Assembly (NCBI RefSeq): GCF_003352165.1
Contig: NZ_CP029176.1
Coordinates: 310,001 to 374,000 of the forward strand
Length of the DNA: 64,000 nt
Direction: 5' to 3'
Source: Acidibrevibacterium fodinaquatile
GTDB lineage: Bacteria > Pseudomonadota > Alphaproteobacteria > Acetobacterales > Acetobacteraceae
Part shown: piece by piece, positions 20,742 to 37,000 of the stretch
Numbering within the stretch: the stretch's first letter is position 1
How the letters are laid out: each line of letters opens with the position of its first letter
Translations under genes and position numbers: made by a program
Notes under the pieces: generated by a model
Seen by the model: the letters and a program-made list of their open reading frames with translations, nothing else
What the model was told of the DNA's origin: nothing
Databases searched by the model: none

Positions 20742-22481
20742 TCACAGCCCGAGCCCCTGGTTGCGGCCGAAGCCCCAGTCGATCCCGCCATCCGCGCGGG
20801 TGACGCCGGAGACGTGGCGGCCGAGCTGCTTTTCGAGGGAGGGCGTCCAGGGCACGAGCTGAAAGCCAAGACCGTCATCGATCATGGCGAAGCGGCCGGA
20901 GGCGAGCGCGAAGCGCTGTCGGTAGGTGCCGGCGACATACTCGCCGGTCGCCGCGCCATTGAACGGCTGGCCCGTTTCGGCGGCGAGCCGCTCGCCCAAC
21001 GCCTCCACCTCCCGCCGTCGAAGCGTTCCGATCAGGCCGGAGGCGAACACGATCCCCCGCGCCTGTCGGTCGGCAAGGCCCTGCTCAATGAGCTGGTCCG
21101 CCCGGCGATCCATCGCCTCGCGGACCTCGGCACCGAAGCCGGCTTGGCCGAGCGCCACCGGATCGCGCGCGACGGCTTGGCGATCGAGCCAGGTTGCGCC
21201 ACTCGCCGCCACCTGGTCTTCGATGGCGAGGTCGGAACGCACAGCAATGGCGACGCGACGCCGGCCCTGCGCGTCGTCGAACTTGCGCAGCTCGACGATC
21301 GAGCCCGGCGCGCTGTCGCCGGAGGCGTCGAGATCGGGAAGCTTGATGTGGTGGGTCCGCCCGTCGACGCCATCGACGACAGCGTAGGCCGTACCCTTCA
21401 GCTCATCGTCGAGACCGCGATCGACCAGGCGGCCGATGATCGGGACATCCAGGCTCTCGCCAGCGAGCACATAGGTCGCCGCGGCCCGCTCGATGCCGCG
21501 CTCGGTCAGGCTGCGGTGGATGCGCTTGATAATGTCGCCGCGCTCGCCGAGCTCGCGCAAGGTCGTCTCGGCGGCGGCGTCCATCGTCCATTGGCCCGGC
21601 CCGAGCTGGTGCGCGAGACCAAGACCCTCCAGGCGCCGCAATCGTCCGACCTTGAGCGCTTCGAACGGATCAGGCTGGCGTCCCGCATCCGGCGCGAGGT
21701 CGATGACGCCGTGCCGATCGGCGTCGCGGACGAGCTGCCGGTCGAGCTGGGTCCAGCGCTCGGCGTCGATCTGGCGCTCGAGCGCGCGGCGGATATCGAA
21801 ATCGCTGCGCAGCCCCAGCTCCTGCGTCACCAGGTCCTGGGCGCGGGCGCGCATGCCTTCCTTGACGTAGTCGCGCGAGATGACGAGGTCCTGGCCGTCG
21901 TCGGCGACGCCGCGCACGATGACGTGGACGTGCGGATGCTGCGTGTTCCAGTGATCGACAGCGACCCAATCCAGCTTGGTCCCCAGATCCTTCTCCATCT
22001 GGCCGACCAACTCGCGGGCGAAGCCCTTGAGGTCGGACAGCTCGGCGGCATCTTCGGGTGAGACGATGAATCGGAAATGGTGGCGATCATCCTGAGAGCG
22101 CTCCGCGAAGGCCTTGGGATCGGCATCCGCCGTCTCCGGTCCGAACAGCCTCGCCTTTTCCCCGTCCCGGGTGACGCCCTCGCGCCGGAGATAGCCGAGG
22201 TGGGCCGAGAGCGGCGCTGATCTCGCCGCATGACGGACGACGCGGGTCTTGATCGTCACCAGACGCGAGCGGCCGGTGAGCAGACGGTTCGCCTGCACGC
22301 CGGCGACCCGGCCGCGGCCGAACGTCGAGCGCTTCCCACTTCTGAGCATGCCCTGTCGCGACACGCCGCCGCCGGCGCGTTGGGCGGCGGCGAGCGCCTG
22401 GGCGATGAAGGGCTTGGCCCGTTGGCTCCGCGAAGAGCGGATGCGGCCTGGCCGGGGCTGGAAGTCATTCTCTTCAGCCAT
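20742..22481 (-). CDS. Relaxase (VirD2-like, DUF3363 C-terminal type)
   Basis: A 579-residue relaxase that should nick oriT and pilot the strand. The catalytic Tyr candidate is in HLGYLRREG (about residue 92). The metal-binding histidines lie in HWNTQHPHVHVIVRG (about 178-185), the HxH part of the three-histidine motif. The C-terminal half corresponds to DUF3363, including GEYVAGTYRQRFALASGRFAMID. ATG 22481 has GAGG upstream; earlier in-frame starts run through the repeat-rich region and are rejected. traG follows directly. Confidence 0.93.
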   Translation of the reverse strand: MAEENDFQPRPGRIRSSRSQRAKPFIAQALAAAQRAGGGVSRQGMLRSGKRSTFGRGRVAGVQANRLLTGRSRLVTIKTRVVRHAARSAPLSAHLGYLRREGVTRDGEKARLFGPETADADPKAFAERSQDDRHHFRFIVSPEDAAELSDLKGFARELVGQMEKDLGTKLDWVAVDHWNTQHPHVHVIVRGVADDGQDLVISRDYVKEGMRARAQDLVTQELGLRSDFDIRRALERQIDAERWTQLDRQLVRDADRHGVIDLAPDAGRQPDPFEALKVGRLRRLEGLGLAHQLGPGQWTMDAAAETTLRELGERGDIIKRIHRSLTERGIERAAATYVLAGESLDVPIIGRLVDRGLDDELKGTAYAVVDGVDGRTHHIKLPDLDASGDSAPGSIVELRKFDDAQGRRRVAIAVRSDLAIEDQVAASGATWLDRQAVARDPVALGQAGFGAEVREAMDRRADQLIEQGLADRQARGIVFASGLIGTLRRREVEALGERLAAETGQPFNGAATGEYVAGTYRQRFALASGRFAMIDDGLGFQLVPWTPSLEKQLGRHVSGVTRADGGIDWGFGRNQGLGL

Positions 22482-22492
22482 CGCCAGCCTCG

Positions 22493-22652
22493 GCAATGTG
22501 TGGAAAAGCGAGGTCCGGCAAAGCGTTGAGGCGCCCGCGCACATTGCGCCCTGGGTCCGCACATTGCCGGATCGCCGAAAAATCCCAACAAAAACAACCG
22601 ACCGACCGAGCCGCACATTGCGGCCTTTTATCTCGCCCTCGGTCGGTTGGTT
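22493..22652. repeat. Candidate oriT: GCACATTGC repeats and nested inverted repeat
   Basis: This lies in the 354-base gap upstream of the relaxase (22482-22835), which holds no gene. The nonamer GCACATTGC occurs at 22539, 22559 and 22613 in direct orientation, and the related inverse GCAATGTGTGG at 22493-22503. The last copy forms a palindrome GCCGCA-cat-TGCGGC. It is framed by a 15-base inverted repeat with one mismatch (22596-22610 and 22638-22652, arms ending GACCGAG and starting CTCGGTC). Repeats plus nested inverted repeats next to a relaxase gene are the usual look of an origin of transfer. The nick site is not determined. Confidence 0.6.
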
Positions 22653-22835
22653 TCTGCGCTCCTCCCTTGCCTGCCCTTCCTTCTTCCCGGAAGTACGCTA
22701 TGCCGCGCCTTCCTACGAAATCGCACCCGAGAGCAGTGATGCAGCCCCCAGGGACGTCGGAAGCCGCCAAGCCGATGGGGAAAGGGCGAGCTGACCGAGG
22801 CGACGTAGCGGCATGACGGTGGGGGAGCAGTGCAA

Positions 22836-24988: not shown

Positions 24989-25239
24989 GAGCTCTCTCCG
25001 GGATCGGCAGGGAATTCGCGCGCGAAGAGGTCGCGCAGCATGTCGGCGACGGTGATCCCGCGCCGGAAAGCGGCGACCTTGATGCGGCCGCGCAGCGCTG
25101 GCGTGACGTCGATCGTCAACCGGGCGATGAAGGCGGAGGGCTCGTCGCCGCGCCGGCTTGGCGCTTCCGGTGTCTTGATCCAGCTCTCGGCGTCGCCGGG
25201 CCGGGCGGCGAAGCCGCGTCGGGTGGCGCGCTCGCTCAT
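24985..25239 (-). CDS. ParG-like ribbon-helix-helix protein
   Basis: An 84-residue protein with a disordered basic N-terminus and a C-terminal ribbon-helix-helix (ARLTIDVTPALRGRIKVAAFRRGITVADMLRDLF). Directly downstream of parA, with an ATGA overlap, this is the expected position and form of the centromere-binding partner of a type Ib partition system (ParG-like). It may also repress the operon. The partner role is inferred. Confidence 0.8.
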   Translation of the reverse strand: MSERATRRGFAARPGDAESWIKTPEAPSRRGDEPSAFIARLTIDVTPALRGRIKVAAFRRGITVADMLRDLFAREFPADPGESS

Positions 25240-25874
25240 GGCGCGATCCTCGCGACTTCAGCGGCGAGTGCTGCGATCTCGCGGGCCGCAGCGCTCTGCT
25301 CGGCCAGCTCGAACACGAGGCGGCCGGACTGTGCGGCGTCGGCGAAGATAACGCGCTGGCCGATGGTGCTGGAGAGCACCGGCGGATCGTGATCGGCGAG
25401 CGTTTCGGCCGTTTCGCGGGCGATCACCGTGCGCGCGGCGCAGCGGTTCAACACGAAGCGCGCAGCGAGTTGCGGACGATAGATGCGCGCCTCGCGAAGC
25501 AGGCCCAGCATCTCGGCCGATGCCCAGCCGTCGAACGGCGACGGCTGCACGGGGATCAGCACGAGATCGGCAGCGAGCAGCGCCGAGCGCATCAGCCCCG
25601 CGACACGCGGTGGCCCATCGATGACGACATGATCGGCTGTGCGCGCGATCTCCGGCGCCTCGCGGTGGAGCGTGTCGCGCGCGAGTCCAACGACTCCGAA
25701 GAGCCGTGAGACGTTCTCCCGCGCCCGCTGCTGCGACCAATCGAGCGCCGAGCCCTGCGGGTCCGCATCGATCAGGGTGACGCGCTTGCCGTGCAGCGCC
25801 AGCTCGCCGGCGAGATGAAGCGCAAGCGTGGTCTTGCCGACGCCGCCCTTCTGGTTGAGCAGAGCGACGATCAT
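25236..25874 (-). CDS. parA: ParA partition ATPase
   Basis: A 212-residue small ParA/Soj ATPase starting MIVALLNQKGGVGKTTLALH, with the deviant Walker A KGGVGKTT at residues 9-16. VTLIDADPQGSALDWSQQR is the Walker A' region and VVIDGPP is Walker B. It lacks an N-terminal helix-turn-helix, as in type Ib partition systems. It overlaps repA by ATGA and the ribbon-helix-helix gene downstream, so partition and replication genes form one coupled unit. Confidence 0.94.
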   Translation of the reverse strand: MIVALLNQKGGVGKTTLALHLAGELALHGKRVTLIDADPQGSALDWSQQRARENVSRLFGVVGLARDTLHREAPEIARTADHVVIDGPPRVAGLMRSALLAADLVLIPVQPSPFDGWASAEMLGLLREARIYRPQLAARFVLNRCAARTVIARETAETLADHDPPVLSSTIGQRVIFADAAQSGRLVFELAEQSAAAREIAALAAEVARIAP

Positions 25875-26986
25875 CGCTTCCCTCCCGGCTTGCGGCTGAA
25901 GGGCAGCGACGGCTGTCGTGCTGGTGGTTCGGAGGTCCGCGCAGCGGTGGTGGCGCGCCTATCCGCAGATCGCGCGGGCCCACTACAAGAGTTAGATTCT
26001 GAGTTAGACTCTAAGTTAAGGCCCGGAATCGCGGTTTCCGGCCAAAGTGTTAGCTGCGGTTCGTGCGTGCGAAGTCCCGATAGGGCTGCGTGCGGAGTCC
26101 CGATACCGTTTGCGTGCGAAGTCCCGAGCGTTTCCACAGCGCCATCCACAGGGACTGTGGATAAGTGGGCCGGCAGGATGCGCAGCAGCTCGCGGTGGCC
26201 CTGCCACTCGATGCGCAGGCGATAGCCGGGCAGCGGCTGGCGCGCGGCGATGCGCCGGATCTGGAGCGCGAAATCGGAGACGCGCACCAGGCTGCCGGAC
26301 TTCTCGTGGAGATGGGGGATCTCGAATAGCCAACCCTTCGGCTGGCGGCCGGCGTGCTTGCGAGCGACGCGATACAGCCAGCGCTCGATGCCGCCGGTCA
26401 GCCGGAAGTAGGCGGGATCGATAGCGAGAACGAGCGAGCGGTCGATGACGCCGCGGTAGAACCAATCGGGGAGGACGAACTCCATGCCCTCGACGCGGCC
26501 CTCACGCGTCGTGCATTCCTCCCATTCGTTGATCCACGAGAACTGGTGACGCCGCCAATGCTCGCCGCTGCGGATAGTGGTGCGGATGACGGTCGACTGC
26601 AGGCGGGCGAGCGCGCCCTTCAGCAGTTTGTAGTCGCGAGCCCCCGTCTGGCGGCCAATGGAGGTCAGCAGCTGATAGGGTGTGAACCGGAGGAACCGCG
26701 AGGTCTTGAACCCGAGGTTCTCGGCCTCGACGATCTGGCTCGCCGCCCAGATCAGCACGTCGGCGTCCCAGATGGTCGCCATGCCGTGCTCGGGCACGGC
26801 GTAGACCTCGACGCGAACGTCGGCGGCTTCGTAGAGGATCGGCGTCGTGCGTCTGGTCTTGGCGAGGGAGAAGAACGGCCGTTCCATCAGGTCGCGCTGA
26901 TCGCGTGGGCTGGCGTCGCCGGTGGCGACGACGAACGGTTCGAGCTTGCTTCGCTCGCTGGCAGTGATGAGGCGGCGCGACGACAT
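25871..26986 (-). CDS. repA: RepA-type replication initiator
   Basis: A 371-residue replication initiator of the RepA type found with parA-traF in Tn4371-like elements. The core has RTTPILYEAADVRVEVYA, WDADVLIWAASQIVEAE, FTPYQLLTSIGRQTG and RHQFSWINEWEE, and continues with two winged-helix-like parts (YRVARKHAGRQPKGWLFEI). The start ATG 26986 follows 14 bases after the helix-turn-helix gene. The last 80 codons contain the iterons, DnaA box and AT-rich repeats described at 25988-26164, so the coding end doubles as a candidate origin. Confidence 0.9.
   Translation of the reverse strand: MSSRRLITASERSKLEPFVVATGDASPRDQRDLMERPFFSLAKTRRTTPILYEAADVRVEVYAVPEHGMATIWDADVLIWAASQIVEAENLGFKTSRFLRFTPYQLLTSIGRQTGARDYKLLKGALARLQSTVIRTTIRSGEHWRRHQFSWINEWEECTTREGRVEGMEFVLPDWFYRGVIDRSLVLAIDPAYFRLTGGIERWLYRVARKHAGRQPKGWLFEIPHLHEKSGSLVRVSDFALQIRRIAARQPLPGYRLRIEWQGHRELLRILPAHLSTVPVDGAVETLGTSHANGIGTPHAALSGLRTHEPQLTLWPETAIPGLNLESNSESNSCSGPARSADRRATTAARTSEPPARQPSLPFSRKPGGKR
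25988..26164. other. Candidate vegetative origin inside the 3' end of repA
   Basis: Three 18-base direct repeats TGCGTGCGRAGTCCCGA(T/G) start at 26064, 26087 and 26111, spaced 23-24 bases, about two helical turns. A perfect DnaA box (TGTGGATAA, the inverse of TTATCCACA) sits at 26156-26164 with related ATCCACA and TTCCACA sequences just before it. On the other side, 25988-26120 begins with an AT-rich direct repeat: GAGTTAGATTCT, GAGTTAGACTCT and AAGTTAAG. Iterons, DnaA box and an AT-rich repeat set are the parts of an iteron origin. Function is inferred from layout. Confidence 0.65.
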
Positions 26987-27000
26987 CGAGGAGCGCCGCG

Positions 27001-27252
27001 TCAGCGATGCGCGTGGCCCGCGGCGCGGGCCTCGACATAGCGAGGGTCCGACGTCGAATTGCACGCGGCTTTGTCGGCCCAGGCTTCGAGATCGTCGACC
27101 GCATAGACGACGCGTCCGCCGAGCTTGCGGAAGGTTGGGCCGCTGCCATGGCAGCGGTATTTTTCCAGCGTGCGCGGCGAGATGCCGAGCATGCGCGCGG
27201 CCTCGTGAGTGCGGACGTAGCGCGTAGCGAGCTGCGCGGACCTGTCGAGCAT
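27001..27252 (-). CDS. Helix-turn-helix (AlpA/excisionase-like) protein
   Basis: An 83-residue protein with the MerR/excisionase-type winged helix: VRTHEAARMLGISPRTLEKYRCHGSGPTFRKLGGRVVYAVDDLEAW. Proteins of this kind upstream of repA in conjugative elements are thought to control replication or excision genes. It stands 14 bases before repA and is probably co-transcribed. Whether it acts as a recombination directionality factor cannot be told from the sequence. Confidence 0.88.
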   Translation of the reverse strand: MLDRSAQLATRYVRTHEAARMLGISPRTLEKYRCHGSGPTFRKLGGRVVYAVDDLEAWADKAACNSTSDPRYVEARAAGHAHR

Positions 27253-27352
27253 GGGAAGCCTCCGTCTTGCCTCGAAGCGCCGCGGCCAAGTCGCGGCATG
27301 TCGGGGTCACGGTGGCGGAGAGTTCAGGCGTTGGGGGTGGACAAAGATTTTC

Positions 27353-29483: not shown

Positions 29484-29810
29484 TCAGTCGCTCCGGCGAC
29501 CGTTGGGGCGGGACCAGATCAGGCTGTAGCCCTCGCCCTCTTCGTCGTCGAACAGGTTGGCGAAGATCGGGGCGGTGAAGCTCGGATCGTCGAGCTTGAG
29601 ACCCAGATAGTCGCGGCCCTCGTTGGAGCGCTTGGCCCAGGCGGCGCCGATTTCGACCCGGCCGACATAGACGCGGTGGCTGGGGCTGTTGTCGCCGGAG
29701 CGGTTGGTTTCGGGGACGATCCGGACGTTCTTGGCCTGGACCGAGAGGGTGACGATTTCGCCGGTGAATTCGTTCGAGCCGGTCTTCTTGAAGGTGCCGA
29801 TGGTCGCCAT
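29484..29810 (-). CDS. DUF736 family protein (second copy)
   Basis: A 108-residue DUF736 protein: [61 protein letters not shown] and a final [12 protein letters not shown]. It is a better match to the family pattern than the copy at 23557-23892. AAGGAG lies about 10 bases before ATG 29810. Function unknown; the family is a marker of conjugative elements. Confidence 0.9.
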
Positions 29811-30398
29811 TGTAGTTCTCCTTGATCTCTGTTTCCGAGCCCGCACCATTGCGGCCTCGATGGTGATCGAAGGGCCGGAGGCGATCGACGGCGCACCCCG
29901 AAGGGGCTCGACAGCAAAGGAGGGGCTTTCTTGTCTCGCGAGGAATGACGGCGCAGCCGGCAGGGGAAGAAAGTTTTGACGCCGCTGTTGCGCCATAGGC
30001 GGTCGAGGCTTCAGCCGGCCTTCGGCCAGATCAATCCATCGAAGAGGCCGTTCGGTGCGCTCGGTCTGACAGAGCTGACATCAAGGGGAACGTGGCGATT
30101 CTCGAGTCACCGCAAGTCCGGCCAGTGAATTCAACGGTGGTGTGTCCCCGTCCAGGCAACCGATGGATCTCCTGTTTCTGAAGCCAAGCTTCGGCGGCAC
30201 GCCCTGCCATGCACTTCGTTGGCGCTATTCGTGAGACCTCGCCACCTCCGCCATGTCGTCTCAACGACCGCCACGACTCCCGGCACCCCGCGATGACAGG
30301 GTGCGCTTCGAAGCCAAGCCGCGCTCACTCCGTGTTCGGCGACGAGGGTGGCGAGCATACGGAATGCCTGATCCAGCCCGCCCATCGACGTGACGGTG
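29811..30398. other. Gene-poor 588-base gap
   Basis: Between the DUF736 gene and the membrane-protein gene no reading frame shows a recognisable protein, a credible start with Shine-Dalgarno, or family motif. Short open frames exist on both strands but look like chance GC-rich frames. I see no strong repeat or hairpin here either. Confidence 0.5.
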
Positions 30399-31760: not shown

Positions 31761-32690
31761 TCACGCGCCGCCGAACTTCCAGACCGGGATGCCGAGCTTC
31801 TTCGCCTTGTCGGCGAGGTTGTCCTGGATGCCGGTGCCCGGGAAGTGCAGGACGCCGATCGGCAGGGTCTCCACCATTGCATCGTTGCGCTTGAACGGCG
31901 CGGCCTTGGCGTGCTTCGTCCAGTCGGGTTTGAAGGCGATCTGCGTGACCTTACGATTGTCGGCCCATTTGGCGGCAATCAGCTCGGCGCCCTTGGGCGA
32001 TCCGCCGTGCAGCAGCACCATGTCCGGGTGCTTGGCGTGGACCTGATCGAGCTTCGCCCAGACCAGCCGGTGATCGTTGAAGTCGAGGCCGCCGGTGAGT
32101 GCGACCTTCGGACCCGGGGGGAGGAGCACCTGGTTCGCCGCGCGCTTCTTCGCCGCTAGGAAGTCGCGGCTGTCGATCATCGCGGAGGTCAGGTTGCGGT
32201 GATTGACCTTCGACCCGTTGCGCGGCCGCCAGGTTGAATGGGTGTGATGCTCGAATTGGTCGGCGGCCTGGTCGCGCATCAGCTCGAAGGCGTTGCGGCG
32301 TTCGATCAGCGTCTGACCTTCCGCCGTCAGGCGTTCCAGCTCGACGGACTTGACCTCGCTGCCATCCTGTTCCCGTTGCGCGCGTTGCTGCGCCAGCTCG
32401 TTGTCATCGAGTTCGCGTTCGATCCGGTCAATGGCGCGATGGAAGACGTTCACCGTCGACCAGAGCAGGTCCTCGAGGTCGGGTTCGAGGCGAGTGTCGG
32501 CCAGCGCCACCACGAGAGCGTCGAAGATGTCGGAGATGCTGCCTGCAAGGATGTTCGCTTCGGGAAGCGGCCTGGGGTCGGGTTCGTCGTCGAAGGGACG
32601 GTAGCCATAGAGCTGGAGTTCGTGGAGGACCTGGTCGGTCGGGGATGAGGTGTGGTGCGGCTCGAAATCGTCGTCGTGGTCGGTGGTCAT
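31761..32690 (-). CDS. DUF2493 (SLOG/YspA-like) protein
   Basis: A 309-residue protein. Residues 1-190 are helical and acidic, with a coiled-coil-like stretch near 90-150. Residues from about 200 carry the Rossmann-like DUF2493/SLOG fold: KVALTGGLDFNDHRLVWAKLDQVHAKHPDMVLLHGGSPKGAELIAAKWADNR and a final TGIQDNLADKAKKLGIPV. SLOG domains bind nucleotides or nucleotide-derived signals. The gene is a usual member of these elements; function unknown. The start MTTDHDDDF fits the family. Confidence 0.88.
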   Translation of the reverse strand: MTTDHDDDFEPHHTSSPTDQVLHELQLYGYRPFDDEPDPRPLPEANILAGSISDIFDALVVALADTRLEPDLEDLLWSTVNVFHRAIDRIERELDDNELAQQRAQREQDGSEVKSVELERLTAEGQTLIERRNAFELMRDQAADQFEHHTHSTWRPRNGSKVNHRNLTSAMIDSRDFLAAKKRAANQVLLPPGPKVALTGGLDFNDHRLVWAKLDQVHAKHPDMVLLHGGSPKGAELIAAKWADNRKVTQIAFKPDWTKHAKAAPFKRNDAMVETLPIGVLHFPGTGIQDNLADKAKKLGIPVWKFGGA

Positions 32691-32813
32691 CGCGGCTTTC
32701 CTTGTCGGATCGGCCGCGCCCATCGCGGCCTTCATGGCGACGAAGGCGGCGGGCGGAACGGACTTGCACCCGCAGCGCAGCGGAGGGCCGAAGCCTCGGC
32801 GGAGGACCGAAGG

Positions 32814-32876
32814 GGGCCGACTATTTTGTCTCGCGATGTAAAGGCGGCTCCGCCGCCGACGGAAAATAGTCGGCCC
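32814..32876. repeat. 14-bp perfect inverted repeat (long hairpin)
   Basis: GGGCCGACTATTTT (32814-32827) is perfectly inverted at 32863-32876, with an inner GGCGG/CCGCC stem in the 35-base loop. It sits in the 32691-33016 gap between two minus-strand genes (DUF2493 and toprim). On the minus strand the outer arm ends in AAAATAGT, not a T tract, so a terminator is not obvious. A recombination or single-strand-origin hairpin is an alternative. The rest of the gap holds no gene. Confidence 0.6.
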
Positions 32877-33016
32877 ACAAGGTTGCCGGTGCGGGCCGCT
32901 TGCTGCCCGATCGCCCTCTCAGAAGGCCGTGGGTGCGGTCCTCTCCGGCGCTGAGGAAAGCATGACCGCCGCCCTACGGTGACGACGCTGGCGAACTGCC
33001 TCTCGTCCCGTTCCGG

Positions 33017-34072
33017 CTATGCCGCCAACTCCATGAAGCGGGCGACGTCCTGCGCGGCGATCTGCACCCGACTGGCCGCTCGAAGCGCGTCGATCCCAAG
33101 CAGGCGGAGATCCTCGTTGAAGTCGCCGAGTCGTGGCGAGATCACGATCGCCTCGATCCCGGCCTCCTGCGTCCGGTCGATCAATGTCGCCATTGCGCCG
33201 TCGCCGGCCGAATCATCGTCGCGGGCGATGTAGAGTCGCCGCAGCGTGTCCGGGAACAGGATGGCGGAGAGATGCGCCGCCGAGAGGGCTGCGACCATCG
33301 GCATGGTCGGCAAGACGCATCTGAGCGACAGCATCGTCTCGATGCCCTCGCCAGCCGCCATGACCTCGCCCGCCACGCCAAATCGAACGGCATGGCCGAG
33401 AAGGTCGCCCATCGCCCGTCTCGGCGTATCGATCGGTGCCTTGCCGAGCATCGCCTCGGTGAAGCCGCCGGGGTCGAGCCAGGTGCGGTGCGCGCCGGTG
33501 AGATGTCCCGCGAGATCGGTGACGGAGGCGATCATCGCCGGCCAGGTCTCGGTCGGGCTATGGTCGTCGGGCCGGTAGTAACAGCGCGGGTGGAAGCGCA
33601 GGCTTCCGGTTCCGTGCAAAGCCGTAATGCCGCGATTGCGGAGATACGTTTCTACGAGAGTACGAGAAATCGGCTGTGACATGGCGAACAGTCGTCGTGC
33701 CGCCTCGGGCGATCCGGTCGGGGCGCTTGGCGCGCGTGATCGGGGATGATCCGGCTCCGGTTCGGGATGCGGCAGGCTGAGGAACGAACGCGCCTCATCG
33801 GCGACATCCTTGAAGTCGACCAGGCCGCAGCTTTCCTGAATGACGTCGAGCAGGTCGCCATGCTCGCCGGTGGCGGCATCGGTCCATTTGCCGGCCGGCC
33901 CTTTCACCGACTCCTTGAGCCGGACGAACATCGAGCGGCCCGGAGTATTGCGCACGTCGCCGACCAGCCAATAGCGGCCCTCCCGCCGTCCGGCCGAAAG
34001 GTAGTGGCGGCACACCGCCTCGGCATCGCGCGCGAGACGTTGGGACAATTCGGACGCGTCATGGCGGCCCAT
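33017..34072 (-). CDS. Toprim-domain primase-like protein (DUF7146)
   Basis: A 351-residue protein. The N-terminal part has a degenerate primase zinc-finger-like region (YWLVGDVRNTPGRSMFVRL ... GKWTDAATGEHGDLLDVI). The C-terminal toprim domain has the Glu motif VMAAGEGIETMLS and the acidic motif LYIARDDDSAGDGAM (DxD). This is the 'toprim domain/DUF7146' family that follows the Strawberry-notch gene in alphaproteobacterial elements, probably for priming or anti-restriction DNA processing. ATG 34072 shares a base with the upstream stop (TGATG). Confidence 0.9.
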   Translation of the reverse strand: MGRHDASELSQRLARDAEAVCRHYLSAGRREGRYWLVGDVRNTPGRSMFVRLKESVKGPAGKWTDAATGEHGDLLDVIQESCGLVDFKDVADEARSFLSLPHPEPEPDHPRSRAPSAPTGSPEAARRLFAMSQPISRTLVETYLRNRGITALHGTGSLRFHPRCYYRPDDHSPTETWPAMIASVTDLAGHLTGAHRTWLDPGGFTEAMLGKAPIDTPRRAMGDLLGHAVRFGVAGEVMAAGEGIETMLSLRCVLPTMPMVAALSAAHLSAILFPDTLRRLYIARDDDSAGDGAMATLIDRTQEAGIEAIVISPRLGDFNEDLRLLGIDALRAASRVQIAAQDVARFMELAA

Positions 34073-37000
34073 CACGCGGCTTCCCGCTCGCCGATGCGCT
34101 CGACCGGATAGTGGTCGAGGACTTTGGCCAGCACTCCGGCGCCGGTGGCGTCGGTCGGCACAAACATGCGCAGCTTCCAGGAGATGATCTCGCTGAAGAG
34201 GCCGTAGGCGCGCAGGCGGCCGCGCATGGTGTCGGTGAAGCCCGACAGCTCGATGCGGTGAGCGCCCATGACGCGCACCCGATGGAGTTGCAGACCCTCG
34301 GCGAGGTCGAGGACTGTCCTGCCTTCCATCAGCGCTGCAAAGGCCGCGTCCGGTGTCAGGGTGGTAGCGCCGCTCAACGATGCGTTCGCTGCCCAGGCCG
34401 GAGAGACCCTGCGGCCGATGACGCGCTCGCCCGCGTCGGTCTGAAGCCGATAGACCCGTGTCGACTCGTTCGGCAGGCGCTTCCAGATCGGCAGCAGCAA
34501 GCCGGCGACGATATGGATCGTGTTGTCGGCGAATTCAGGGACCTCCGCGACTTCGCGAGCCCATACGGCGGCAAAGGCTTTCCGCTCCGCCGCCTGCCAG
34601 TGGCTCTCGTCCATCATTTTCAGCGAAGCGTGATGGTGCTCCATTGGCCGGATCAGCCGTACACGGCGTTCGATCTCGCCGTCGTCGAGCATCAAGCTCG
34701 GCGCAGGAATCTGTACTGCGGCGCGGCCCGAGCGCTCGTTCACCAGCAGCATAGCGCGGGGATCGGCGAGATGATCCAACGCCTCATCGAGCGTCACCGG
34801 GCGATTGCGCCGGCGCTCGGTGATGGTGAGCAACCGGGTCTCCGCGCCCGTCGCGGGATGGGTGTAGATTGCCCGGCGATCGGTGACGATGAAGCTTTCG
34901 GCCCGCAGTGTCTCCAGGCCGACGTCATAGACGCCGCTGGCGATGGCGCCTTCGATCTTGGCGTTCAGCAACTGCTCGAACGCAGTGAACAGCACGCCCT
35001 GCAGCTCGATGGTGAGCGCCAGGAGGCGGTTGAGGAAGGTCGTGATCGGCGGCAACTCGTCCTTGATGCCACTCGCGTCCATGAGCTTCAGGCCTGTGGC
35101 GTCCTCGAACATCTGGAGCGAGCAGCCTTCGATCTTGCCACGCACGAGCAGCATGTAGAGCTGGCGCAGCGCGTCGCGGGCGTAGTGCGATTCCAGATTG
35201 TCCTCGGGCCTGAAGAGTCCCTGGCCGCCGGTCTGGCGCTGGCCGCGGGTGATGGCGCCAAGCGTGTCGAGGCGGCGGGCGATGGTCGAGAGGAAGCGCT
35301 TCTCGGCCTTCACATCGGTGGCGATCGGCCGGAACAGCGGCGGCTGCGCCTGGTTGGTGCGATTGGTCCGCCCGAGGCCCTGGATCGCGGCGTCGGCTTT
35401 CCAGCCGGGTTCGAGTAGATAGTGGACGCGCAGCCGGCGGTTCCGCGCCGAGAGTTCGGCGTGGTAACTGCGGCCCGTCCCGCCCGCCTCCGAAAAGACC
35501 AGGACGCGCTTCAGGTCGTCCATGAAGGCGGCGGTCTCGGCGAGGTTGGCGGAGGCCGCGCGGTTCTCCACGACGAGGCGGTCACCCTTGCGCACCACGC
35601 GGCGCGAGCGTCCGGTCACTTCGGCGACGAGGTCCGTGCCGAAGCGCTGGACGATCTGGTCGAGCGCGCCGGGAACGGGCGGCAGCGAAGCTAGCCGCTC
35701 GATCAGCTCATTGCGGCGGGCGACGGCTTCGCGGCTCTCGACGAGCTGGCCGTCCCGAAAGACGGGCCGGGACGAGAGATTGCCCTCGCTGTCGGTGAAC
35801 GGCTCGTAGAGTTGCACCGGGAAGGAATGAGCGAGGTAGTCGAGAACATACTCGCGCGGCGTGATGTCGACGCGGATGTCGTTCCATTCCTCGGTCGGAA
35901 TCTCGGCGAGCCGGCGCTCCATCAAGGCCTCGCCGGTCGAGACGATCTGGATGACGGCGGCATGGCCGTCGGCGAGGTCTTGATCGATCCTGCGGATCAG
36001 GGTCGGCGTCTTCATCGAGGTCAGCAGATGGCCGAAGAAGCGCTGCTTGGCGCTCTCGAAAGCCGAGCGTGCGGCCGACTTCGCCTGGGCGTTCAGCGTG
36101 CCGCTTTCGCCGGTGATGTTGGCTGCCTGCATCGCCGCATCGAGGTGATTGTGGATGATCGCGAAGGCGCCGGCATAGGCGTCGTAGATGCGCCGCTGCT
36201 CGTCGGTGAGCGGGTGCTCGATCAGCTCGTATTCGACGCCGTCATAGGAGAGCGATCGGGCGGTGTAGAGCCCGAGCGACCGGAGATCCCGGGCTAGCAC
36301 CTCCATGGCGGCGACACCGCCATCCTCGATCGCCTCGACGAACTCGGCGCGTGTGGCGAAGGGGAAATCCTCGCCGCCCCACAGGCCGAGCCGCTGGGCA
36401 TAGGCGAGGTTGTGGACCGTGGTGGCGCCGGTCGCCGAGACATAGACGACGCGCGCGTCCGGCAGGGCGTGCTGCAGGCGCAAGCCCGCACGGCCCTGCT
36501 GCGAGGCCGCAACATCGCCCCGCTCTCCTTTGCCGCCACCGGCGTTCTGCATGGCGTGGCTCTCGTCGAAAATGATCACTCCGTCGAAATCGGAGCCCAA
36601 CCATTCAACGATCTGGCGGACGCGCGAAAGCTTCTCGCCGCGGTCGTCGGACCGCAGCGTAGCGTAGGTTAAAAATAGGACGCCTTCGGACAGCCGGATC
36701 GGTTTGCCCTGGGGGAAGCGCGAGAGCGGCGTGATGAGCAGGCGCTCCATGCCAAGGGCCGACCAGTCGCGCTGGGCGTCCTCTAGCAGCTTGTCGGACT
36801 TCGAGATCCAGACCGCCTTGCGCCGGCCCTTCAGCCAGTTGTCCAGGATGATGCCGGCCGACTGGCGGCCCTTGCCGGCGCCGGTGCCGTCGCCAAGCAT
36901 GAAGCCCCGGCGAAAGCGGACGGCGTTCGGCGCGTCGTCCCGCGCGGCGGTGACGAGATCGAAGGTCTCGTCCACGGTCCAGGCGCCGGCGAGATAGTCG

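Follow-up and report, generated by a model that had tools for sequence, protein, structure and literature searches.

The DUF2493 locus

The window, the whole 64-kb stretch of the Acidibrevibacterium fodinaquatile genome analysed here, carries genes of a predicted integrated conjugative element (Table 1). A relaxase gene lies beside a predicted origin of transfer (oriT), and two hairpins on the plus strand each stand before a gene encoded on the minus strand, DUF736 for one and DUF2493 for the other. Beyond the DUF7146 and Toprim_3 gene ('toprim' hereafter) lies a strawberry-notch-type helicase gene. Genes for a replication initiator (RPA) and ParA, found at 25236-27310 within the integrated element, suggest plasmid-like maintenance. 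Next to the predicted oriT, CGCACATTGC occurs three times (22537-22620); a relaxosome or replication protein may bind at these repeats.

Table 1. Features of the window discussed in the text
Feature	Position	Strand	Remarks
Relaxase gene, DUF3363 (PF11843) and Relaxase (PF03432)	20742-22616	-	Domain matches
Predicted oriT nic region, CTTTTATCTCG/CCCTC	22625-22640	+	Inside inverted repeat 22591-22653; same-strand motif in relatives
DUF736 gene	29484-29810	-	Downstream of second hairpin copy
Second hairpin copy, diverged, type B, CTTTCTT-GTCTCGCGA...AAGAAAG	29904-29993	+	Covariance models R1 and R2
DUF2493 / YAcAr gene (PF10686)	31761-32690	-	Start codon 32688-32690; downstream of hairpin
Whole long imperfect hairpin	32712-32942	+ (folded)	Base ~22 nt upstream of DUF2493 start codon
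Apical hairpin, P1 arms	32814-32827 / 32863-32876	+	Sequence and covarying P1 pairs
Internal-loop side, conserved, GNNTCGCGATGNAAA	32828-32842	+	T32839 pairs with A32859
Terminal stem P2, variable, GGCGGC TCC GCCGCC	32843-32857	+	Both-side changes at 5 of 6 pairs
DUF7146 and Toprim_3 gene	33017-34075	-	Upstream neighbour; not required for hairpin

The apical hairpin is a covarying structure

As the original prediction had it, a perfect 14-nt inverted repeat (P1) stands in a gene-free gap, which measures 326 nt from the toprim stop to DUF2493 if the latter starts at 32690, and no T tract follows the hairpin. The P1 arms are 35 nt apart, and theirs is the sole perfect pair of at least 14 nt among the longest 25 of the 39 inverted pairs (arms at most 120 nt apart) in the window. 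They enclose an inner GGCGGC/GCCGCC stem of 6 bp with a 3-nt loop; across copies this terminal stem ranges from a few to ~30 bp. A 91-nt stretch around the repeat folds better than its shuffles on either strand (plus strand, z -3.5, with 1 of 200 shuffles equal or better; minus strand, z -3.6, with 0 of 200).

The core pattern used for collecting further sequences fixed the innermost pairs. Pairing at the 24 apical pairs reaches 96.9% in the collected sequences, compared with 80.1% when shuffled and 39-54% when slid, and the covariation score is 0.411 against 0.140 in controls; 13 of the 24 pairs have changed on both sides among 53 sequences. At the N:N' pair of the internal loop, the 113 sequences parsed out of 117 have C:G (60), G:C (40) or T:A (13), and two of the four unparsed ones, L042 and L147, show G opposite A. 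The hairpin is found in many genera; it is neither absent from relatives nor conserved in one arm only, the two outcomes that the original prediction had named against itself. The GC-rich sequence and the 39 inverted pairs of the window would suit a chance inverted repeat or a terminator, but compensatory changes across genera already refute the chance reading, a terminator would lack its T tract, and we give this explanation practically no credence.

A ~230-nt fold on the plus strand

The original prediction covered the tip alone; conservation and pairing span ~230 nt, from the DUF2493 start side to about 32942, and fold prediction returns a single long branched hairpin common to 76 sequences. 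Over its 84 pairs, cells with double changes number 512 versus 173 in shuffles (shuffle maximum 198). Folded as DNA, the whole element reaches -73.1 kcal/mol on the plus strand (z -3.75) and -64.2 kcal/mol on the minus strand (z -2.73). The outer long fold persists without the apical hairpin in four DUF2493 loci (L227, L229, L230 and L233), where the tip has been lost. Function may reside in the outer fold, with the tip as a modulator or as a site for another protein.

Non-canonical pairs bear on which strand folds. At P1 pairs 1-9, G.T outnumbers A.C by 26 to 2 in 56 distinct arm pairs, a count that leaves aside L087, L089, L092, L095, L108 and L139, in which the P1 arms were not located. The whole element has 419 G.T versus 112 A.C cells (491 versus 217 in shuffled columns), and the type B copies have 12 versus 3, counted without four matches that miss the core motif. 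Relative to shuffles, A.C is avoided about twofold and G.T hardly at all, and the raw G.T excess is partly base composition. Avoidance of A.C and retention of G.T on the plus strand indicate that this is the folding strand, opposite to the flanking mRNAs; since it is the template for the neighbouring genes, the fold is not part of their mRNA. A DUF2493 leader RNA was accordingly rejected as lying on the wrong strand. The wider proposal of a DUF2493, DUF736 or ArdC mRNA leader, or of a cruciform operator in double-stranded DNA, regulating the gene, draws on the near-fixed start-codon spacing described below, but the 419 G.T cells would become A.C mismatches on the mRNA strand, and a cruciform would be expected to have no single-strand preference; we hold either form to be very improbable.

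Covariation and G.U retention would also suit a small structured plus-strand RNA, antisense to the gene leaders and controlling translation. This we consider improbable. Rfam has no match above cut-off in 32737-32942; a SorX match at 32667-32736, overlapping the left edge of the element, is sub-threshold (19.4 bits, cut-off 46.6). No sigma-70 promoter with canonical -10/-35 boxes was matched in the linear sequence of 32640-33040 on either strand, and an upstream plus-strand promoter would sit at or inside the DUF2493 start. Such an RNA would, moreover, leave unexplained why the folded strand agrees with the putative transferred strand in two relaxase families (see below). A TTGC...GATC arrangement with a spacing of 26-27 nt occurs in 34 of the 76 sequences and is too weak to count.

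The hairpin does not track the toprim gene

The core-pattern search of the genome collection gave at least 120 stretches, which with three viral ones make at least 123 loci. Dropped from the counts were pattern matches without a stem (L037, L112, L127, L150 and L151), a contig end (L060), short matches judged to be chance (L018, L019, L020, L023 and L024) and L184. Among the matches listed, DUF2493 is encoded opposite to the folded strand in 110 of the 110 loci that show it, and the hairpin lies just before it in 109, with the gene start 73-196 nt from the core; in the lone exception, L067, an IS110-type transposase gene separates the two. L211 likewise has an IS110-type transposase gene inserted between hairpin and DUF2493.

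The toprim gene is less faithful. Among the matches listed, 102 loci show both toprim and DUF2493. In 98 of them toprim sits at a distance of 150-350 nt, and in the other four (L040, L077, L123 and L143) it is displaced by 610-2112 nt; in two further loci, L047 and L093, it is missing, and the helicase gene is directly next. With toprim displaced or missing while the hairpin stays, the hairpin does not track it, and the same hairpin type is found before DUF736 or ArdC. The original prediction had proposed a single-strand initiation site for the toprim/primase-like protein, to be recognised by the hairpin tracking the toprim gene. Its idea of a single-strand element is supported, as the fold lies on the predicted transferred strand; the link to toprim fails in six hairpin loci, and a toprim/primase site was rejected. 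Its alternative was a recombination site, and nothing in the present comparisons pointed to recombination at the hairpin. RSF1010 ssiA and ssiB are primase sites, with a hairpin beside a primase-like gene, and differ in this respect from the present hairpin, which does not follow toprim.

One of the three viral-contig matches is real. Since it has the DUF2493-hairpin-toprim block, L149, listed as a viral contig in IMG/VR, is probably a plasmid or integrative conjugative element (ICE). A search of phage records gave no match to the DUF2493-type element.

A hairpin family with near-fixed spacing to start codons

Two covariance models connect the hairpins of the window. R1, built on the DUF2493 type and not trained on the DUF736 copy, finds that copy at 36.8 bits (E 5.2e-8); R2, the second-type model, was trained with the DUF736 copy (which it scores at E 7.8e-13) and without the original DUF2493 copy, which it recovers at E 1.7e-6. 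By these cross-matches, the DUF2493-type and DUF736-type hairpins are one family. Copy number, which the original prediction proposed to check, came to four strong copies in the host genome, each before DUF2493; the fourth (C1:3058850-3058977), near which no DUF3363 relaxase is listed, possibly belongs to a remnant element.

Across 385 genomes of the class, host included, R1 matches 25 and R2 26, with a union of 28. DUF2493 is present in 31 of the 385, of which 20 have the hairpin and 11 have no hairpin match at E 0.001; eight genomes have the hairpin without DUF2493. In twenty stretches around hits, R2 gives 40 matches, and 14 stretches hold two to four; at these multi-copy loci all R2 copies share one strand (14 of 14). 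R1 gives weak reverse-strand scores at some copies, two such matches lying atop true copies in the twenty stretches. The gene behind the hairpin, for 41 matches, is DUF736 (20), DUF2493 (8), ArdC (5), a small or unnamed ORF (7) or an IS (1), and Pfam confirms five ArdC genes and one DUF736 gene. L051, a candidate DUF736 case, was dropped from the counts, the fit being limited to the first residues of the protein.

Spacing was measured in 43 copies, namely these 41 matches and the two of the window, several of them near-identical. Distances were taken to the ATG preceded by the best ribosome-binding site. Thirty-three copies lie 100-114 nt away (median 107), nine are nearer or farther, and for one no ribosome-binding site is present; the near-fixed spacing holds across DUF2493, DUF736, ArdC and small ORFs. 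Plasmid records were matched by the DUF2493 type (62), the DUF736 type (310, of which 218 are typed conjugative) and the ArdC type (32). In one genome (G463), two regions ~35 kb apart, L256 and L257, have four hairpins each, on the same strand within a region. These stand before DUF736 and small ORFs, in L256 also before ArdC, and neither region has a DUF3363 relaxase close by.

The transferred strand in MOBP-type elements

RlxS presumably carries DUF3363, as does the relaxase of the window. RlxS has been classed as MOBP1 (PMC8627217), and the MOBP nick site has been given as (C/T)ATCCTG(C/T), with the 5' end of the 3' fragment keeping the relaxase (PMC3772185). Of 48 loci from genomes screened for this relaxase family, 36 could be shown to carry the relaxase on the hairpin's own contig (the others being L038, L048, L049, L055, L063, L074, L076, L086, L091, L093, L096 and L106). 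It is encoded opposite to the hairpin in all 36 and lies 5' of it in 35, the exception being L073, where it is 36 kb away on the 3' side, on the opposite strand still. Taken by coordinate alone, the nearest relaxase fits in 35 of 43 loci, and the first 20 examined in detail were all fitting ones. A second set has 19 contigs on which a relaxase is encoded within 60 kb, and on all 19 it lies 5' of the hairpin and on the opposite strand. For the pair of copies at 1575620 and 1577113 in G444, the only listed relaxase on that strand is 65 kb off and on the same strand as the copies. Gene order is largely conserved, so these counts of orientation and spacing are not independent events.

Upstream of the relaxase, TTTATC(T/C)(T/C)GCC.TC occurs in the window and in 18 of 20 relatives, with variants in L168 and L172; this relaxed nic motif derives solely from comparison of the upstream regions. 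In the second set, a widened form of the pattern detects the nic core on the hairpin strand for 15 of 18 cases and on the opposite one for none of the 18 (shuffled, 0.6%; the stricter form matched 10 of 18); in the remaining three, L276, L277 and L292, a variant occupies the corresponding position. The IncP nic sequence YATCCTGY was tried and rejected: its 11 matches in the window compare with 5.9 expected, 6 of 100 shuffles have as many, and none is at the relaxase start. With the nic-like motif on the plus strand, transfer of this strand would proceed rightward from about 22636 and would bring in the hairpin ~10 kb later.

The transferred strand in MOBQ plasmids

MOBQ plasmids (of the Ti, Ri and symbiosis types) provide a better test of the transferred strand than the MOBP set. 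Seven were examined, and the Ti-type oriT core TATAATTGCGCCC, part of an oriT with a presumed nick position, is on the hairpin strand in all six that have the core in view (pAtS4c, pShin-12, pRiO132, pRlX2, pTiAF3.44 and pRvVAR0630b), 4.9-12.3 kb 5' of the DUF736-type hairpin. In the seventh (L298), no core was found within the stretch examined, and an IS3 adjoins the hairpin. The hairpin of the six starts 102-107 nt before the annotated DUF736 start, and in five of them an ArdC or zincin-metallopeptidase gene is preceded, at 103-105 nt, by a short form that lacks the apical stem and scores weakly (E 0.05-0.33). Taken together, the nic-like motifs and the oriT core on the hairpin strand suggest that it is the transferred strand on which the hairpin folds and that the fold belongs to the leading region, where this strand would be the template for the gene.

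A candidate single-strand promoter

In the published accounts of Frpo, single-stranded DNA folds and mimics a duplex, and polymerase transcribes early genes from it (PMC9849209, PMC11541004); the fold rebuilds canonical boxes (PMC9849209). Like Frpo and ssi of F and ColIb-P9, described in the same two papers, the present element is a non-coding stem-loop, stable as a single strand by fold prediction and covariation. By nic, relaxase orientation and Ti-type oriT core, it is predicted to be part of the leading region and of the strand that is transferred; it precedes leading genes templated by that strand and occurs more than once per element. Unlike Frpo, it shows no canonical -35/-10 boxes in its linear sequence. 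It is a long, imperfect, GC-rich hairpin whose internal loop has a conserved TCGCGA and whose distance to the ATG is near-fixed, and in the genomes covered here it is found mainly in Alphaproteobacteria. Its variable tip, naturally missing at some loci, also speaks against a plain counterpart of Frpo.

Given what sequence comparison establishes, namely the structure, the folded strand, the family, the start-codon spacing and the position relative to the predicted oriT, we think it probable that the ~230-nt element is a promoter-like element of single-stranded DNA in the leading region, Frpo-like in its working and without recognisable -35/-10 boxes. During conjugation, the plus strand would enter the recipient 5' end first from the oriT at ~22.6 kb and, while single-stranded, would fold into the long imperfect hairpin mimicking double-stranded DNA. 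RNA polymerase would start at the fold and read leftward, toward oriT, into DUF2493; the second copy would serve DUF736 likewise, and copies elsewhere ArdC and other early genes, which would thus be read before the second strand is made. Two links of this scheme we infer: the identity of the folded strand with the transferred one, which we take from the nic-like motifs, and recruitment of RNA polymerase (or primase) by the hairpin for early expression, and perhaps for primer synthesis, on single-stranded DNA.

The same strand and position evidence would fit a priming site of the sso/ssi kind, in which the hairpin of the transferred strand recruits RNA polymerase or primase for second-strand synthesis and the downstream genes are incidental. 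The sso elements of ICEBs1 and rolling-circle plasmids are described as orientation-specific stem-loops active only when single-stranded, ICEBs1 sso1 among them (PMC4595007), and the orientation of the present hairpin fits; transcription and primer synthesis both appear in the title of the Frpo paper. In contrast to sso, the hairpins here come in several copies, each near a start codon, in Gram-negative hosts. A priming site needs neither the ~107-nt spacing to start codons nor two to four copies per region before different genes, and the hairpin does not follow the toprim gene. We judge such a site with incidental genes unlikely, while second-strand priming in a general sense, alone or with transcription, is possible.

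The promoter-like reading may extend beyond this host. More tentatively, and at somewhat less than even chances, alphaproteobacterial conjugative elements (Ti/Ri and symbiosis-type plasmids, ICEs) may share single-strand promoters, with the conserved TCGCGA internal loop as recognition element, that switch on a regulon of first-entering genes (ArdC, DUF736, DUF2493 and others) before the DNA is double-stranded. These promoters would be unrelated to Frpo.

Implications for gene transfer in Alphaproteobacteria

A literature search returned no title describing the hairpin among the matches listed, with thin coverage of subscription papers. The single-strand promoters treated in the cited papers are those of F- and ColIb-like plasmids. 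More of them have been sought by BLAST against five known Frpo/ssi sequences together with consensus boxes (PMC11541004), and a hairpin family with no recognisable boxes could escape BLAST and box searches alike. Many mobile elements of rhizobia and related bacteria have the predicted fold before genes expected to enter early. ArdC of R388 is reported to be required in recipients and not in donors (PMC7213743). If the promoter-like reading is true, the hairpin would mark the first-acting genes of rhizobial and agrobacterial plasmids in a new cell and would suggest roles for DUF736 and DUF2493 in establishment or anti-defence, beside the anti-restriction gene ArdC, and early expression during conjugation would become testable in a major bacterial class.
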